DNA of 62,424 nucleotides, from NCBI GenBank assembly GCA_902793285.1, contig CADBCV010000010.1, positions 1-62,424 of the forward strand, read 5' to 3'. Source of the DNA: Oscillospiraceae bacterium. Lineage in GTDB: Bacteria > Bacillota > Clostridia > Oscillospirales > Oscillospiraceae. Position 1 is the stretch's first letter. Every line of letters starts with the position of its first letter. The notes below the pieces were generated by a model. That model was not told where the DNA came from, did not search any database, and worked only from the letters and a program-made list of their open reading frames with translations. Below are positions 19,462 through 31,819 of this stretch, piece after piece. The position numbers and the translations under genes are program-made.

Positions 19462-19659
19462 GGCTGTGAAAAAAGTCAGTATGATAGCGTAGGGGAGGGG
19501 CTTGCCCCTCCCGGCAGCATAGGGTAACCATTAAAAAGCGATGTACGGCGAAATCGTAATTTTCTACGAAATCGCCGTACATTTTTGCGTTTTTAACATT
19601 TCTGCGCGCGGGAGGGGCAAGCCCCTCCCCTACGCCTGTGGGGTACTTTTTTCACAGCC
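19462..19659. repeat. Palindromic intergenic repeat, family A (full-length copy)
   Basis: The ends are a perfect 15-base inverted repeat, GGCTGTGAAAAAAGT at 19462 and ACTTTTTTCACAGCC at 19645. Inside are a second inverted pair, the GTAGGGGAGGGGCTTGCCCC type, and a central palindrome with TGTACGGCGAAATCG against its complement. The rest of the 19447-19736 gap holds no gene. The T-rich right end may act as a terminator. Confidence 0.8.
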
Positions 19660-19736
19660 CCTTTTGCAATGGGCGCAGATAGTCCAGGCTCCCGCGCGCA
19701 TACGATAGATTAGCCTGTTGCGTGAAAGGAGCCTTT

Positions 19737-20870
19737 ATGCAGATCTATATCGTCAAAGCCGGGGACAGTCTCTATGCCGTCGCCCGGCGCTTCGGGACAA
19801 CGGTGGACGCGCTCGTCCGATTGAACCAGATCGCGGACCCGTCCCGCCTTGTCATCGGGCAGAGCCTTCTGATCCCCGGCCCCTCCGTGGACGTGCGCGA
19901 GCAGATCGAGGTCAACGCCTATGTCTATCCCACGGTGCGCGACTCCGTCCTCACGGAGACCATGCCGTATTTCACCACGCTCTGTCCCTTTTCCCATGCG
20001 GCAACAAAGGAGGGGGAGCTGCGCCCCATCGAGGATGAGCGTCTCATCCGGGCGGCTTATGCAGGCCAGACCGCGCCGCTTCTCACGGTGACGAATCTCG
20101 GGGAGTCGGGCGGCTTCTCCTCGGACCTTGCCCATGTGCTCCTTACGGATGAGGGGGTGCAGGCGCGGCTTTTTGAGAGCATCGTTTCCCTCATCCGGGA
20201 GAAGGACTATTACGGCCTCAACATCAACTTTGAGTACATCTATCCCTTCGACCGGGACAGCTACAGCCAGTTTGTGGCAAAAGCGGCGGAGCGCCTGCAC
20301 CCCCTGGGCTGCCCGGTCTCCACGGCCATCGCCCCGAAGGAGAGCGCGAACCAGCAGGGCCTCCTCTATACCGCCCACGACTATGAGGCCCACGGCCGCT
20401 ACGCCGACCGGGTGATCCTCATGACCTATGAGTGGGGCTATACCTACGGCGCGCCGCAGGCGATCTCTCCGGTGGACCGTATCCGCCGGGTGCTGGACTA
20501 CGCCGTGACGGTGATGCCGGCGGGGAAGATCCTCCTGGGCTTTTCCAACTACGCCTACGACTGGACCCTCCCCTGGAAGCAGGGCACGGCGGCGCGCTAT
20601 CTCTCGAACGCCGGGGCGCAGGAGCTCGCCGCCTCCCGATGGGCGGAGATCCGCTATGACGAGCGGGCCGAGGCGCCGTATTTCCGCTACACCGACACCG
20701 CCGGCAGGACCCACGTGGTCTGGTTCGAGGACGCCCGCAGCATCCGCGCGCGGCTGCGTCTTGTGGGGGAGTACGGCCTTGCGGGCATCAGCATCTGGAC
20801 CGCGGACCGCCTCTGGCAGCCGCTCTACGCGCTTTTGGAGAGCATGTACAGCGTGGAGAAAATCCTGTAA
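19737..20870 (+). CDS. LysM-GH18 spore cortex-lytic/peptidoglycan hydrolase (SleL/YaaH-like)
   Basis: The start at 19737 (MQIYIVKAGDSLYAVARRFG) follows AAAGGAG. Residues 1-50 are a LysM domain. The rest is a GH18 barrel of the SleL/YaaH spore-lysin type, which act as N-acetylglucosaminidases on cortex peptidoglycan. The catalytic motif reads GLNINFEYI. The proton-donor Glu is present, but the Asp two residues before it, usual in GH18, is Asn. The last 27 bases of the gene, including the stop codon, are repeated 3.3 kb downstream, marking an insertion right at its 3' end. Confidence 0.85.
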   Translation: MQIYIVKAGDSLYAVARRFGTTVDALVRLNQIADPSRLVIGQSLLIPGPSVDVREQIEVNAYVYPTVRDSVLTETMPYFTTLCPFSHAATKEGELRPIEDERLIRAAYAGQTAPLLTVTNLGESGGFSSDLAHVLLTDEGVQARLFESIVSLIREKDYYGLNINFEYIYPFDRDSYSQFVAKAAERLHPLGCPVSTAIAPKESANQQGLLYTAHDYEAHGRYADRVILMTYEWGYTYGAPQAISPVDRIRRVLDYAVTVMPAGKILLGFSNYAYDWTLPWKQGTAARYLSNAGAQELAASRWAEIRYDERAEAPYFRYTDTAGRTHVVWFEDARSIRARLRLVGEYGLAGISIWTADRLWQPLYALLESMYSVEKIL

Positions 20871-20871
20871 G
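20844..20871. repeat. Left 28-bp direct repeat (att-like)
   Basis: Starts ATGTACAGCGTGGAGAAAAT and ends with the stop codon TAA and one G of the GH18 reading frame. Identical to 24149-24176. Confidence 0.85.
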
Positions 20872-20903
20872 TTGATTTGCCGTCGTCCTTACTCAGGTGG
20901 GTT

Positions 20904-22040
20904 TCAATTCCCAACTTGAAGCCTGCGGTATTTCCGCCGTCCAATCAAAAATGCTGCCATGAAAATCACAGCGTATATCACAGACGCTGCCTGAAAGTTC
21001 AAAAATAATCTGCCCGCCAGATGTATCAGCCGGTAGTTGGTAAATCCTGTATTCATCAAAACCGCATTCGGCCGGAGAAGCCATATTCTTTGGATGATGC
21101 CGAAGCGATCCGGAAGATTCGCAAACAGATCAACGATCAGATATCCCAACAAGCCGCAGGTCACCGCGGGCTGATTCTGCGTAATCACAGACAGCAGCAT
21201 GGTCACAGCGGCAAAAAGGAGCGCTGCAAGAAGGTATATTTCTGCGTACACCCCCAGCATTTGCCCGAGCGTATAGGGAAGCATGGACCACGGCTTCACC
21301 AGCTGCAGCATTTCCCCCATTCCTTCCATCCCGTAAACAAAGAAATACGGGGTGGATACCGCAAGGAGCAGAAGGAATGCCGCTGCCAGAATCCAGGTAA
21401 GGCCGGCAGCAAACTTGATCAGATACAGTTCTTTCTTTCCGTATCGGCTGCACAACAGAAGCTGATTCATGTTATCCGCCGTTTCTCTTGCATAGACGCC
21501 TGACAGTCCGACAGTAGACAGGAGAAAGATAAAGAATCCAAGCACCTGAAAGGCTTTGAGCAGGTTCGCAGGTCCGCTGTGGTAATGATAAACAAATGGT
21601 TTGGAAACCTGCGCCTCCTGGCTGCGCCAGAATTCCTTTTCTGTTTCTGAGAGTCTCTGTTTCTCGATTCGTTGATTCAGTTCCTGCTCACGCAGCGCAT
21701 AAAACTCCGTTCCATCAAGCTGAGTAAGGTCCATGTCATAACCGGTCACAGAAGTTATCACATCCATAATAGGAACATATTTTTCGGACTCCGCTCTGAT
21801 CTCTATCACCGTTGATCCGTTTTCAACCCTCATGGCAGGCTTCAGTTCCTCTATCAGTTCTCCGTCAATGGCCCTGCCGTCCAGTTCTTTGGCCGCTTCC
21901 CGGGATACCGGCTGGACCTCCGAGATGGAGAATATCACCAGGAACACAAGCATAATGACCGCTCCTGCGAGCGCAATCAGATTTACCTTCGCACGGAACA
22001 GTTTTTTCAGTTCATACATATATATAATCCGAAGCATCAC
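20904..22040 (-). CDS. ABC-2 type transporter permease
   Basis: The 378-residue protein has an N-terminal helix (LIALAGAVIMLVFLVIFSIS), a long extracytoplasmic loop of about 130 residues, and five further membrane helices grouped in the C-terminal half. This fits ABC-2 permeases with BcrB/LanFEG-like topology. It ends RRKYRRLQVGN and is the last gene of the four-gene leftward cargo. It lies six bases after the ATPase gene. The substrate is unknown; peptide antibiotic resistance or lipid export is typical for such modules. Confidence 0.8.
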   Translation of the reverse strand: MMLRIIYMYELKKLFRAKVNLIALAGAVIMLVFLVIFSISEVQPVSREAAKELDGRAIDGELIEELKPAMRVENGSTVIEIRAESEKYVPIMDVITSVTGYDMDLTQLDGTEFYALREQELNQRIEKQRLSETEKEFWRSQEAQVSKPFVYHYHSGPANLLKAFQVLGFFIFLLSTVGLSGVYARETADNMNQLLLCSRYGKKELYLIKFAAGLTWILAAAFLLLLAVSTPYFFVYGMEGMGEMLQLVKPWSMLPYTLGQMLGVYAEIYLLAALLFAAVTMLLSVITQNQPAVTCGLLGYLIVDLFANLPDRFGIIQRIWLLRPNAVLMNTGFTNYRLIHLAGRLFLNFQAASVIYAVIFMAAFLIGRRKYRRLQVGN

Positions 22041-22046
22041 GCAAGT

Positions 22047-22745
22047 TCACCTCTTTTCCCCAATCTTAGAGATATAGAATGCCTCCAAGTCTTCTCCCCC
22101 GGCAGAACGGTTTCCCTGCCAGAGCAGCTGTCCGTCTTTCATAATCATCAGTCGGTCTGCGATATGCTCCAGATCCGATACGATGTGCGTCGATAACAGA
22201 ACGATTATATTCTGTCCTAATCCTGAGATCAGATTGCGGAAACGGATTCTCTCTTGTGGATCAAGACCTGCGGTCGGTTCATCCATAATCAGAATCTGCG
22301 GATCATTTAAAAGAGCCTGCGCAATTCCAAGCCTCTGCCTCATCCCACCGGAATACGTACGCACCTTTTTCCCGGCTGAATCTCTCAGCCCGACCAGTTC
22401 GATCAGTTCCTGTGTTTTTCGAATAGCATCCTTTTTTGTCAGTCCCTTTACAGCGGACATATAGAGGAGAAAATCCTTTCCGGAGAATTCCGGATAAAAG
22501 CCAAAGTCCTGCGGAAGGTACCCCAGAATATCTCGATATTCCTCCGTTCCCACACTCATTCCGTCACAGGAGACGCTTCCGCTGTCAGGGGCGAGAATCC
22601 CACAGAGCAGACGCATCAGTGTTGTTTTCCCTGCTCCGTTTGCACCCAGAAGTCCCGTTACTCCTTTTGTCAAGGTAAATGACATCCGATCAACGGCAAT
22701 CTTATTTTTATATTGTTTGGTGATTCTGTCTGCTATAAGTTCCAT
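22047..22745 (-). CDS. ABC transporter ATP-binding protein (CcmA/BcrA type)
   Basis: 232 residues with Walker A GANGAGKTTL, Q-loop region YLPQDFGFYPEF, signature YSGGMRQRLGIAQAL and Walker B ILIMDEPTAGLD, then H-loop STHIVSD. It is short but complete. It overlaps the upstream membrane-protein gene by 13 bases and forms a transporter with the permease that follows. Confidence 0.92.
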   Translation of the reverse strand: MELIADRITKQYKNKIAVDRMSFTLTKGVTGLLGANGAGKTTLMRLLCGILAPDSGSVSCDGMSVGTEEYRDILGYLPQDFGFYPEFSGKDFLLYMSAVKGLTKKDAIRKTQELIELVGLRDSAGKKVRTYSGGMRQRLGIAQALLNDPQILIMDEPTAGLDPQERIRFRNLISGLGQNIIVLLSTHIVSDLEHIADRLMIMKDGQLLWQGNRSAGGEDLEAFYISKIGEKR

Positions 22746-23479
22746 ACCGGTTCCTCCAACTCACAAATCCATCTGCGTACGCTGATGAAAAGACATAAAA
22801 TAAGCAGGATAAACGCCACTGTCCATATGAAAGTAAACCTCTCTTCATATAAACTGCTTAAACAATATGGTGCCGCTGCAAAAAGCCCTGATGACATAAA
22901 GCAGATTATTATGCTTCCCAAGCCACTGTGCGACCTGTTCTTCCTTTCATACACCGAGCCTGACAGTGAGGCTGCCAGATACGGCACCATCATGTAAAGG
23001 AATACTCTGCTCAGAGAATATGAAAACCATGGTCGTACCACCCAGATAACGACCAGGAGTCCTGCCGTCTCCACGATACCAACCAGAAACATCCTTGCAA
23101 GCATTACGCTCCTTAATGAAAATCTGGCAGTATACTCCAATTCAGCCATTTTCCACCTGAAAGATCTTCCTGTCTCCACAAGGATTCCGACCGCCAGAAG
23201 AGGAGTTAAGGCAAAAGGATAGTTTTCTGTGTTGCCGTAACAGATTCCGGTGATGCACAACAATAAGACCGCCGTCAGCAGCCATACCCATTTGCCAACA
23301 TAAAAAAACTGTCTCAGGAGAAATTCCCCATGATTTATGACTTCTGGCCGTCTGGATGTCAGGCCCCGCGCCTCTAATCCCTGAAAGAAAGTCTTTTTCT
23401 TCTCCGGTTCCGGAGCCCGGCAGATTTCTTTCAGATGCCTTATAATCCTGGCATTATCCATTTTCTGCCTCCATTTCAT
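22733..23479 (-). CDS. Membrane protein of the sigma-ABC cargo
   Basis: 248 residues; an N-terminal cytosolic segment of about 60 residues (LKEICRAPEPEKKKTFFQGL) is followed by five or six hydrophobic helices. There is no recognised domain. It overlaps the sigma gene by 26 bases upstream and the ATPase by 13 bases downstream. By position it could be an anti-sigma factor whose soluble N-terminus holds the sigma factor while the membrane part senses a ligand; this is inference. Confidence 0.65.
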   Translation of the reverse strand: MKWRQKMDNARIIRHLKEICRAPEPEKKKTFFQGLEARGLTSRRPEVINHGEFLLRQFFYVGKWVWLLTAVLLLCITGICYGNTENYPFALTPLLAVGILVETGRSFRWKMAELEYTARFSLRSVMLARMFLVGIVETAGLLVVIWVVRPWFSYSLSRVFLYMMVPYLAASLSGSVYERKNRSHSGLGSIIICFMSSGLFAAAPYCLSSLYEERFTFIWTVAFILLILCLFISVRRWICELEEPVWNL

Positions 23480-24032
23480 CCTTGACCTTTTTCAATATCC
23501 CTTTCAGCCTTCTGTATACAGCAAACCTTGATATATTGTATAGACGGCTTATCACAGGGACAGGGACGTCGTTAACATATCGCAAAAGCAGCATTTCCCG
23601 CTCCTCCGGTGAGAGCGTCTGGAGAGCGTCTATCAGGCTGATACGCTCTAACAATGACTGCTCCGATTCTTCCGATTGCGGGATATCCAACACTTCATCG
23701 AAGTTGAAAACAATCACCTTGTCTCTGTAATACTGACTGCACAGATTGCGAGCAATCGTATACAGGTACTGCAGCTGTCGGTTCTCGTCCTGATACGTCC
23801 TGCTTCCAATAAACCGAAAGAAGGTTTCCTGCGTCAGGTCTTCCGCTGTATGTTGGTCATGAAGGCGAAAAAACAGATATTGATAGATCCGATCATATTG
23901 CTCTTCCAGATTCAACGAACGGCCTCCTTCCTCCGTGTAATCTTCAATGTGTATAACGGAATTAAACCCTGTTTGTGCGCCATTTAAAAAATTTTTTAAC
24001 ATTTGTTTTTTCGGATCACCGCCGAGCGGCAT
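23454..24032 (-). CDS. ECF-like sigma-70 family RNA polymerase sigma factor
   Basis: Region 2 is represented by QYDRIYQYLFFRLHD and AEDLTQETFFRFIG, and region 4 by LSPEEREMLLLRYVNDVPVPVISRLYNIS (split: LSPEEREMLLLRYV and VISRLYNIS). The length, about 182-192 residues, is that of an ECF sigma. The ATG at 24032 has no ribosome site; an internal ATG at 24002 (MLKNFLNG) is equally possible. A GGAAC-like and a CGTC element lie just upstream, hinting at autoregulation, but the spacing (19) is long. Confidence 0.85.
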   Translation of the reverse strand: MPLGGDPKKQMLKNFLNGAQTGFNSVIHIEDYTEEGGRSLNLEEQYDRIYQYLFFRLHDQHTAEDLTQETFFRFIGSRTYQDENRQLQYLYTIARNLCSQYYRDKVIVFNFDEVLDIPQSEESEQSLLERISLIDALQTLSPEEREMLLLRYVNDVPVPVISRLYNISRFAVYRRLKGILKKVKDEMEAENG

Positions 24033-24148
24033 AATGACGCTACAGATTCATGAAAAATGTTCCACAGTCTGCCGCCACCTGTCAATTGTCGCCCAGCATA
24101 GCCGTCCTTCCCGGTAAGCATGAGTAAGAAAAACAAAAAGGTCAAAAA

Positions 24149-24176
24149 ATGTACAGCGTGGAGAAAATCCTGTAAG
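24149..24176. repeat. Right 28-bp direct repeat (att-like)
   Basis: Exact copy of 20844-20871. The -35 box of the next gene begins four bases beyond it, so the original intergenic sequence is intact on this side. Confidence 0.85.
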
Positions 24177-24179
24177 GGC

Positions 24180-24208
24180 TTGCGCCCGGGAACGAATGGG
24201 ACTATAAT
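24180..24208 (+). promoter_or_regulatory. Promoter of the AAA ATPase gene
   Basis: TTGCGC (24180-24185), 17-base spacer, TATAAT (24203-24208), followed by a GGGGAGGATC ribosome site before the ATG at 24244. Confidence 0.75.
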
Positions 24209-24243
24209 GATCTTCACGAAAAAGACAGAAGGGGAGGATCATC

Positions 24244-25671
24244 ATGCCCACCACCTGGACCCGCTCGCCCGAGGAATTCCACAAGATCTACACCGCCAAT
24301 ACCGACGCCTTCTACCGGCTCGGCGGCTCCGGCATGGCCAGGGAGCTTGACGAGTTCATGACCAAGTGCGCCCTGAATCTGTGGAGCAAGGGGGGCGGCA
24401 TCACCCAGCGCCATGTGGACATGGCAAACCAGATCTACTCCCGCAATCAGCCCCAGCCCCGCTGGATGCTCTGGTCGCTGACCGGCTCCATCTGCGAGGG
24501 GGAGGTGTTCCTGCCCCCGGTGTTCTACTGGAACCTCGCCGAGAGCGACGCAAAGCGCGGCACGGAAGCCTCGCGCACCTTCATCCGGATGCTGACAAAC
24601 ATCCTCCTCTACCTCGCCGCGGTAGACGACGATGTGACCTATGAGGAGGCCGCCTTCATCACCGAGTGTACCGACAAGCTCACCGCCATCTGCGACACCA
24701 CGGGTGTGCGCAAGAGCAAGGAGCCGTTGAACCCCCTGGAGTTTGTCACAAGCGGGGAGCCGAGCTTTATCGAAAAGCACAGGCTCCAGACCCAGACCAC
24801 CGGCGGCGGGAGCGAGAAGAAGGACGAGGCCAAAGCCGAGATGGAGGAGAGGCCCAGCTTTGACGAGCTCATGGCCCAGCTTGAGTCCCTTGTCGGCCTG
24901 GAGGAGGTCAAGCGGGACATCAAGAATCTCATAAACCTCATGAAGGTCCGCAAGCTCCGCGAGCAGAACGACCTGCCTGTCCCGCCCATGAGCCTGCACA
25001 TGGTCTTCATGGGAAACCCCGGCACCGGCAAGACCACCGTCGCCCGCATCCTCTCCGGCCTCTATGCCGCCATCGGCGTGCTCGAAAAGGGCCAGCTCGT
25101 GGAGGTGGACCGCTCCGGCCTTGTTGCCGGCTACGTGGGGCAGACCGCCCTCAAGACGCAGGAGGTCATCAAAAAGGCCCTCGGCGGCGTCCTCTTCATT
25201 GACGAGGCATACTCCCTCTCCTCCGGCGGGGAGAACGACTTCGGGCGCGAGGCTATCGAGACCATGCTCAAGGCCATGGAGGACCACCGCAAGGAGCTCA
25301 TCGTCATCGTCGCGGGCTATACCGGGCCGATGGAAAAGTTCCTCAGCTCGAATCCCGGGCTCGAGTCTCGCTTCAACAAATACTTCTTCTTCCCAGATTA
25401 TAATGGGGAGCAGCTCATGGAGATCTTCCGCTCCCAGTGCAAGAAGAACGGCTATACGCTCACGGAGGAGTCCGAGAAGGCCGCGGTGGAGCTCTTCACC
25501 GAGCTCTATGAGGAGCGCAGCGAAAACTTCGGCAACGGCCGCGATGTGCGAAACTGCTTTGAGGACATGGTGGTCCGCCAGTCAAACCGCGTGGCCCAGA
25601 TCGAAAACCCCAGCAAGGAGGACCTCATGAACGTCCTGCCCGAGGATCTCGAGGACGAGGAAGAAAAGTGA
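24244..25671 (+). CDS. CbbX/SpoVK-type AAA+ ATPase
   Basis: 475 residues. The C-terminal half is a complete AAA+ module: Walker A MGNPGTGKTTVAR, Walker B GVLFIDEAYSL, sensor region VIVAGYTGPM and arginine-finger region LESRFNKYFFF. This is the CbbX/SpoVK family, ring ATPases that remodel protein complexes; SpoVK acts in spore maturation. The N-terminal 170 residues look TerB-like (AVDDDVTYEEAAFI), joined by a Gly/Lys/Glu-rich linker. It has its own promoter and no operon partner. Confidence 0.85.
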   Translation: MPTTWTRSPEEFHKIYTANTDAFYRLGGSGMARELDEFMTKCALNLWSKGGGITQRHVDMANQIYSRNQPQPRWMLWSLTGSICEGEVFLPPVFYWNLAESDAKRGTEASRTFIRMLTNILLYLAAVDDDVTYEEAAFITECTDKLTAICDTTGVRKSKEPLNPLEFVTSGEPSFIEKHRLQTQTTGGGSEKKDEAKAEMEERPSFDELMAQLESLVGLEEVKRDIKNLINLMKVRKLREQNDLPVPPMSLHMVFMGNPGTGKTTVARILSGLYAAIGVLEKGQLVEVDRSGLVAGYVGQTALKTQEVIKKALGGVLFIDEAYSLSSGGENDFGREAIETMLKAMEDHRKELIVIVAGYTGPMEKFLSSNPGLESRFNKYFFFPDYNGEQLMEIFRSQCKKNGYTLTEESEKAAVELFTELYEERSENFGNGRDVRNCFEDMVVRQSNRVAQIENPSKEDLMNVLPEDLEDEEEK

Positions 25672-25682
25672 TTTACACATTG

Positions 25683-25829
25683 CCGTAGGGGCGGCTGTCA
25701 GCCGCCCGCGCGGTAGAAAAGCAGCATAGAAGAACCCTCCGGCGAATCCGTTGTCAAAAGTACGGACCTGTCGGAGGGTATTTGAATTTTGAACTGGTTT
25801 CATCGGGCGGCTGATAGCCGCCCCTACGG
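25683..25829. repeat. Palindromic intergenic repeat, family A variant (GGCGGCTGTCAGCC ends)
   Basis: CCGTAGGGGCGGCTGTCAG at 25683 is the inverted counterpart of CTGATAGCCGCCCCTACGG ending at 25829, with one mismatch. The middle holds a hairpin ACCCTCCG...CGGAGGGT with an inner TCCGT...ACGGA stem. It fills the gap between two convergent genes and may terminate both. Confidence 0.75.
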
Positions 25830-25842
25830 TCAGATATGCGCG

Positions 25843-26814
25843 TCAGCTTCTCGCGATGAGCTCTTCGACCTGCGCGCGCTCGGGCATGGCGCGGATGGCG
25901 CCCTTCTTGGTGGTGACGATATAGGCGGCGGTGTTTGCAAAGCGGAGCATAGCCTCGAGCTGTGCATCCGTGAGTCCGTCGAGTCCGTTTTCCAGCACGA
26001 AGTTCAAAACGCTCCCGCAGAAGGTGTCGCCCGCGCCGGTGGTCTCAATCACGCCGCCGAGTTTGCAGGCCGGCACGAACACATGCCGCCCGCCATAGAA
26101 GCTGTGGCTCCCGTCCCCGCCGGCGGTGACGTTCAAGAGGCGGATCTGGGGGAAGCGGGCCTTCAGAATGGCGGCGCCCTTGTCAAAATCCGTCTCCCCG
26201 GTCATGAACTCGATCTCGTTGTCCGCGATCTTCAAAATGTCGCAGCGCGAAAGGCCCCACTCGATGGCGGCCCTGGCGCTCTCCTCATCGGGCCAGAGCG
26301 GCGGGCGGAGGTTCGGGTCGAAGGAGATGAGGGCCCCGGCCTCCTTGGCGATCTCATAGGCTCTCACCGTGGCGCTCCTGCAGGGCTCGTCCGTGAGGGA
26401 GAGAGTGCCGAAATGGAAGATGCGGGTCTCGCGCAGAAGCTCCTCGTCCAGCTCTTCGGGACGCAGCATGATGTCCGCGCCGGGCTTGCGGTAAAAGCTG
26501 AAATCCCGGTCGCCGTTCGGGAAGGTGTGCACCACGGCGAGGGTCGTGGGGATATCACTGTCCCGCTTGAGGGCGCGCACGTCGATGCCGGCCTCCTCTA
26601 CGGTTCGGGCGAGCATGTCGCCGAAGCTGTCCTTGCCCACCTTGCCCAGAAAGGCGCAGCGCTTGCCGAGCTTTCGCAGCATGGCGAGCACGTTCGCGGG
26701 CGCGCCGCCGGGGTTTGCCTCAAAGAGAAGATTGCCCTGGCCGCTCAACCCGTTCTGGGTGAAGTCCACCAAAAGCTCGCCGAGGGCGACAACGTCAAAT
26801 TGTTTCTGATCCAT
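25843..26814 (-). CDS. PfkB-family fructokinase
   Basis: 323 residues with the N-terminal PfkB signature GGAPANVLAMLRKLG and the C-terminal signature ETTGAGDTFCGSVLNF, where Asp is the catalytic base. The overall match is to bacterial fructokinases. It lies 45 bases downstream of the amylosucrase gene, on the same strand. Amylosucrase releases fructose from sucrose, and this kinase would convert it to fructose 6-phosphate, so the two form a sucrose-use pair. Confidence 0.88.
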   Translation of the reverse strand: MDQKQFDVVALGELLVDFTQNGLSGQGNLLFEANPGGAPANVLAMLRKLGKRCAFLGKVGKDSFGDMLARTVEEAGIDVRALKRDSDIPTTLAVVHTFPNGDRDFSFYRKPGADIMLRPEELDEELLRETRIFHFGTLSLTDEPCRSATVRAYEIAKEAGALISFDPNLRPPLWPDEESARAAIEWGLSRCDILKIADNEIEFMTGETDFDKGAAILKARFPQIRLLNVTAGGDGSHSFYGGRHVFVPACKLGGVIETTGAGDTFCGSVLNFVLENGLDGLTDAQLEAMLRFANTAAYIVTTKKGAIRAMPERAQVEELIARS

Positions 26815-31686: not shown

Positions 31687-31819
31687 ATCGTAAACGAATT
31701 TGAAAAATGAGTTTACGATTTAGCCATGTTTTTCGGTTGCCCCGTCAGGGGCGAGCGTCTCCCGCAAGCGAGTGCGCGCAGCGGGGTGCAAACTCGATCA
31801 AGTGCCCGCACTTGATCGA
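31687..31819. other. Two inverted repeats between GDPD and MFS genes
   Basis: ATCGTAAAC (31687-31695) and GTTTACGAT (31711-31719) form perfect 9-base arms upstream of the GDPD gene. TCGATCAAGTGC and GCACTTGATCGA (31794-31819) are perfect 12-base arms two bases apart, right after the MFS stop, and could end the MFS transcript though no T tract follows. No gene is present here. Confidence 0.5.

Follow-up and report, generated by a model that had tools for sequence, protein, structure and literature searches.

How does a block of genes that encodes no recombinase come to lie exactly between two copies of the end of another gene? The question is raised by a stretch of 62,424 nucleotides (the window), contig CADBCV010000010.1 of an Oscillospiraceae bacterium known from a draft metagenome-assembled genome (MAG) in 57 contigs, 79.5% complete (G000). 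Here a set of four genes, including those of a sigma factor and an ABC transporter ATPase (the sigma-ABC block), lies between a LysM-glycoside hydrolase family 18 (GH18) gene and a gene for an AAA protein. The answer that we favour, with a probability of about one half, is a cargo-only element of the type of the cis-mobilizable elements (CIMEs), inserted site-specifically by a recombinase acting in trans. If this is true, small cargo genes spread among gut bacteria on elements that have no mobility genes and that go unnoticed when integrases and transposases are searched for in the usual way. The window would then supply an attachment site that can be tested, and ends with which to seek the missing enzyme would come from the tRNA cassettes of related genomes.

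The 28-bp repeat and the block it bounds

The block (20872-24148, 3277 bp) is enclosed by an exact direct repeat (28/28), with plus-strand copies at 20844-20871 and 24149-24176, 3305 bp apart from start to start. The left copy, which resembles a left attachment site (attL-like), consists of the final 27 bases of the GH18 open reading frame (ORF; 19737-20870, plus strand), with the stop codon at 20868-20870, and one further G. The GH18 gene is intact (Pfam LysM 9.2e-15, Glyco_hydro_18 9.6e-22), and the right copy is attR-like. An earlier sequence-only reading of the window had described a 28-bp repeat bounding the sigma-ABC genes, with the left copy supplying the last 27 bases of GH18 including its stop, and the coordinates bear it out. 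The pair is the longest direct repeat in the list for 19500-26500 and one of five exact 20-mer direct pairs across the whole window; simple arithmetic with uniform bases puts the chance of an exact 28-mer pair in 62 kb at ~3e-8. A wider local duplication, the other source that had been considered for the repeats, is ruled out, as the adjoining bases diverge immediately on either side of both copies.

The GC content of the block is 0.473, versus 0.636 and 0.604 in the adjoining 5 kb on the left and right, in agreement with its description as AT-richer than both flanks; in 1-kb stretches elsewhere in the window, GC falls to about 0.53. Its ORFs cover all but 32 and 116 bp at the two ends. Terminal inverted repeats linking the block ends are absent from the repeat list of the window (at least 14 bp) and the duplication measures 28 bp, so that the block does not look like a classical transposon. 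It displays two features of CIMEs, in that att-type direct repeats bound it on both sides, one copy being the target gene end, and that it has no genes for recombination or conjugation. No recombinase is encoded inside it, and its four proteins, two of which match nothing, gave no recombinase or relaxase match when protein families were assigned with Pfam and NCBIfam. No element integrated in tandem, of the kind through which CIMEs are mobilised by accretion, was seen beside it. The notion of foreign cargo placed at a rebuilt gene 3' end, with no recombinase inside, is thereby supported.

Empty sites and the age of the insertion

Relatives of the source genome hold the site without the block, which is thus not carried at this place by all of them. 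Six genomes (G072, G084, G037, G085, G059 and G157) show an empty site, with a single copy of the GH18 end ahead of the AAA gene. The sequence-only reading had foreseen a clean junction on removal of one copy, and the distance computed from the GH18 stop to the AAA start without the block and one copy is 68 bp; it is 69 bp in G072 and G084 and 67 bp in G037 and G085, which matches the prediction well. The gap measures 55 bp in G059 and 145 bp in G157. In G084, G085 and G157 the GH18 gene is split further upstream, and only its 3' part displays the empty site. In two further genomes (G022 and G042) GH18 adjoins the AAA gene with no block between them.

The right junction also occurs in a second species (G056, genome 67% complete), in which contig C153 starts within the block and carries its right 1069 bp followed by the right repeat copy (27/28). 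The block differs from that of the window at 22 of 1069 sites (98% identity), whereas the flanking genes differ far more, at 119/1428 sites in the AAA gene and 135/972 in the PfkB kinase gene (86-92% identity). The first 67 intergenic bp past the right repeat differ at 14 positions, and at third codon positions the sigma factor gene differs at 3 of 192 and the AAA gene at 99 of 476. Identity drops within ~10 bp past the right copy, and the border of the high-identity block falls at the repeat. Since the block is 98% identical and the flanking genes only 86-92%, it is younger than the divergence of the two species and reached this junction after they had separated.

We propose that the arriving form bore the sigma-ABC genes together with a 28-bp match to the 3' end of GH18 and that it recombined site-specifically with this end. 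The enzyme would most likely be a tyrosine recombinase whose gene lies at another place in the cell or on an element resident in it. Phage_integrase matches number 11 in G000 and 5 in G056, and some are found in 14 of 14 control genomes, which at most permits host tyrosine recombinase domains as trans-acting candidates. The event would restore the GH18 end at the attL-like border and leave a displaced copy at the attR-like one, so that neither GH18 nor the AAA promoter would be harmed; the likely AAA promoter (TTGCGC...TATAAT, recognized by eye) starts directly after the right copy. We infer the recombinase class, its action in trans and the 28-mer as attachment core, and the compact form may either still be mobile or be what a larger island has left behind.

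The cargo and its vehicles in related genomes

In a comparison set of 102 draft genomes of the genus, sigma-ABC matches of any kind occur in 30 genomes and close ones in seven (G000, G041, G087, G088, G055, G157 and G056; the copies of G055 and G157 are incomplete at contig ends). A scan of public genomes returned 12 loci, all in MAGs, several of which are labelled goat, sheep or roe deer gut, and the Oscillospiraceae bacterium of the window thus most likely lived in a ruminant gut as well. Four of them are the known genus copies, four others are merely 28-29% alike, and relatives are found in four further MAGs (Oscillospiraceae 85%, Mogibacterium 77%, Parasporobacterium 64% and a broken Lachnospiraceae copy 86%). 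The sequence-only reading had looked to the same genes at other sites, and these exist. Among the places found are the 3' end of a tRNA-Ala gene (locus L090), that of a tmRNA gene in G041 (a cassette end at 31788-31804 lies 7 bases past the gene, recognized with Rfam at 150 bits, L034 11813-12162) and that of rlmD, where the module occupies the same site in G055 (NCBIfam match above cut-off) and G157. The Mogibacterium module (L091) adjoins a gene for a MobA/MobL relaxase, and a serine recombinase follows ~5 kb off, so that the whole resembles a mobilizable element; the module of L092 has a tyrosine integrase ~7 kb away. The copies of the window, G055 and G041 have no fixed ends in common.

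A second, broken sigma-ABC copy is present in the source genome itself (G000:C12 634-1301, L040). It is 92% identical to the window copy and ~95-96% identical to those of G041 and G088 over a longer piece; being closer to the latter, it is probably a separate acquisition. The rlmD 3' end and its surroundings vary among nine relatives (L170-L178), as if many elements had inserted there. Carriage of the cargo by phages or plasmids was rejected, as the searches returned only weak or partial matches: IMG/VR, searched for viral carriage, holds no relative of the permease-like protein, plasmids yield one match to it at merely 22% identity, and phage records give two partial DNA matches (69% and 72%), both inside the ABC ATPase part.

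The modules of G088 and L090 are each enclosed in ~3.75 kb with inverted-repeat ends, segments that belong to a family of cassettes. The cassette end, GATTGCTATTTTAACAA, occurs 63 times in 35 of the 102 genus genomes with at most one mismatch (reversed control, 0). At order level it was found in 18 of 394 genomes, and the reversed control in 11 of 394; outside the genus the end is near background, save for a few paired or exact cases. A script classified 36 hairpin-side and 35 far-side ends in 43 loci, counts that include some visibly misclassified ends (e.g., L238 and L245 among the hairpin-side, L232 and L089 among the far-side ones). CCA stands 2-12 bases upstream of 31 of the 36 hairpin-side ends, versus 10.7% of random positions, and a T-arm pattern precedes the CCA in 24 of the 36; 32 of the 35 far-side ends have TGG or TGA within the preceding nine bases. 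The loci (L149-L167, L229-L248 and L087-L090) lie mostly directly behind tRNA or tmRNA CCA ends. A comparison within G033 shows that the insertion lies past the CCA of the tRNA and ahead of its terminator and that a CCA stands on either side of it. The cargo is varied and includes HNH proteins, XRE regulators, an ArsP permease with ArsR, a LysR regulator with a glycine-transporter family protein, a different sigma-ABC set, and others; one cassette is empty (L240) and another locus is a tandem pair (L153). No autonomous member was recognized by eye in the ORFs of 39 loci, several of them with one end only, no transposase or integrase was found among 15 cassette proteins scanned, and IMG/VR has no match to the hairpin end. 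Such transposase-less inverted-repeat cassettes behind tRNA CCA ends were not found in the open-access literature searched. They are the more unusual part of these observations, and they are context rather than the finding itself.

The window copy is not such a cassette. It lies behind GH18 and not behind a tRNA or tmRNA CCA, and G000 has no GATTGCTATTTTAACAA ends in inverted orientation at up to one mismatch. Its alignment to the G088 cassette opens 194 bp inside the left inverted repeat and closes ~40 bp short of the right one, and a stretch of 248 bp close to the right end is missing from it. As both cassette ends are absent, the window copy did not come to GH18 as an inverted-repeat cassette. 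We tentatively consider that the cargo may be relayed in the genus between two recombinase-less vehicles, cassettes homing on the CCA of tRNA and tmRNA genes by means of an enzyme supplied in trans and an att-type form that inserts at the 3' end of a protein gene and rebuilds it, of which the sigma-ABC genes would have used both.

The arrangement seen in the window is not unique, because the genus has other segments, recombinase-less by eye, between duplicated tRNA 3' ends (20-71 bp). In G155, 71 bp of tRNA-Ser are duplicated 943 bp apart around one SHOCT-domain ORF, and in G056 duplicated 33 bp of tRNA-Arg bound a segment with no visible recombinase. Direct-repeat segments at tRNA ends were noted at L149 807-1018, L157 129-295, L158 86-1099, L150 860-2196 and L152 893-2048; two such segments are merely ~150-190 bp long and resemble microCIMEs.

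Known elements and competing explanations

Mobile insertion cassettes consist of passenger genes between inverted repeats and have no transposase. They resemble the cassettes that bear the cargo in G088 and L090, whereas the window copy has no such ends. The pdif modules and other elements that exploit XerCD are cargo-only and have 28-bp recombination sites; this identity was rejected for the block, as its 28-mer matches two dif sequences at only 5-7 of 28 positions in either orientation. The closest relatives in kind are the CIMEs of streptococci, described in PMC7563491 as recombinase-less, cargo-only elements of 1.2-13 kb with att-like copies of a gene 3' end. Like CIMEs and microCIMEs, the block is cargo bounded by att repeats at a gene 3' end and lacks genes for recombination and transfer. 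As differences, no integrative and conjugative or integrative and mobilizable element of the same site lies in tandem with it or was found in the genomes searched, its target is a GH18 gene, and its cargo also travels in another vehicle in relatives. Islands at ssrA in Dehalococcoides (PMC3146451) show tandem arrays with 20-bp direct repeats of the gene 3' end, some of them without integration genes and discussed as possible cis-mobilizable elements. They share with the block the 3'-end repeats and the members that lack integration genes, and differ from it in that sixteen have an integration module that includes a serine recombinase and that their target is tmRNA. The sequence-only reading had thought that a compact cargo-only element would be new or mobilised in trans; going by PMC7563491, it is not new in principle. 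The type of element is known, and it is the GH18 site, the absence of a recognized parent element and the double life of the cargo that were not met in the open-access literature searched.

Several observations weigh against site-specific insertion of a CIME-type element. The sequence-only reading had looked for the 28-bp core next to an integrase, and no such case came to light in the genus or in IMG/VR. With up to three mismatches allowed, a search that overlooks more diverged cores such as the GH18 ends of G037 and G085, the core lies at seven places in six of the 102 genus genomes, namely five GH18 3' ends and the right junctions of G000 and G056, and none has an integrase beside it. A degenerate core has 0 matches in IMG/VR, as has the left junction pattern. 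Behind GH18 at 14 further loci, inspected by eye for ORFs of at least 90 amino acids (aa) within 5.5 kb with no family scan, no integrase was seen; in one of these loci, that of G031, GH18 is interrupted short of its end. A flanking direct repeat longer than 12 bp is absent from six of the seven other cargo copies tested (G041, G087, G088, L091, L092 and G055), and only L090 has one (22 bp of the tRNA end). The GH18 gene and the left junction were not found in the G056 assembly. An intergenic inverted-repeat element at 25672-25842 differs at only 2 of 171 positions between G000 and G056 (99% identical), and as it lies between genes of 86-92% identity, high-identity patches are not unique to the block. 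Finally, homologous recombination with a crossover in the 28-mer might equally place a young block at the junction. Site-specific arrival is preferred over it for G056 and the window, both being possible.

Homologous recombination between the sister species is also part of an explanation that we regard as unlikely: a one-time illegitimate capture, in which a staggered break or template switching pasted a cassette fragment at the GH18 3' end and created the 28-bp copy, the recombination spreading it afterwards. The truncation of the window copy at both ends relative to the G088 cassette and the lack of fixed ends common to the window, G055 and G041 copies agree with it. A random break, however, is not expected to duplicate 28 bp ending one base past a stop codon, and an identity drop within ~10 bp of the right copy in G056 would be rare for a random crossover. 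Ku was matched in neither G000 nor G056, at the completeness given above, versus one of 14 controls, which speaks weakly against end joining. We consider it rather improbable that a larger island with an integrase of its own once occupied the GH18 3' end and that the block is what remains of it, now reduced to cargo and immobile. This would agree with the origin presumed for CIMEs in PMC7563491, with the apparently mobilizable element around the Mogibacterium module, and with the fact that GH18 has also been hit by a 49.7-kb conjugative element in G027 and broken recurrently near one codon. Yet two species share the compact right part, with a block younger than their divergence, so that the compact form seems to have moved, and no parent island at the GH18 end was found in the 102 genus genomes or the 14 further loci. 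An artefact of MAG assembly, by which the block was joined to GH18 and the AAA gene through a short common repeat, is very improbable. The compared genomes are drafts, and G000 is in 57 contigs; even so, the right junction of G056 is independent and has its own substitutions, and unique sequence stands beside the 28-mer at both junctions.

Cargo genes and other events at GH18

The four genes of the block are all on the minus strand and face GH18. They encode a permease-like membrane protein of 378 aa (20904-22040; no Pfam or NCBIfam match, the label being read from the sequence), an ABC transporter ATPase of 232 aa (22047-22745; Pfam ABC_tran 2.5e-30), a membrane-type protein of 248 aa (22733-23479; no family match, labelled in the same way) that is possibly a regulator of the sigma factor, and a sigma factor of the extracytoplasmic function type of 192 aa as listed (23454-24032; Pfam Sigma70_r2 1e-11, Sigma70_r4_2 6.5e-8; TIGR02937 above cut-off). 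Judging by these families, the cargo is probably an ABC exporter that is controlled by the sigma factor and acts in envelope or peptide stress. The gene beyond the right copy (24244-25671, plus strand) is SpoVK/CbbX-like, its best NCBIfam matches being under their cut-offs.

The gap between GH18 and the AAA gene is prone to insertion, because three genomes (G027, G060 and G068) hold other small inserts there. The one in G027 (L018), situated between the GH18 stop and the AAA start, comprises ~0.65 kb with small ORFs and has TCTTGCAC at both ends. The GH18 gene itself is broken at or near one codon (window 20427-20428) in G027, G060, G084, G085, G157 and G031. In G027 its halves lie on one contig, 49.7 kb apart (G027:C5 43070-92774; L041, L073 and L042), around a conjugative element that encodes a large serine recombinase, a MobA/VirD2-type relaxase and a coupling protein of a type IV secretion system.

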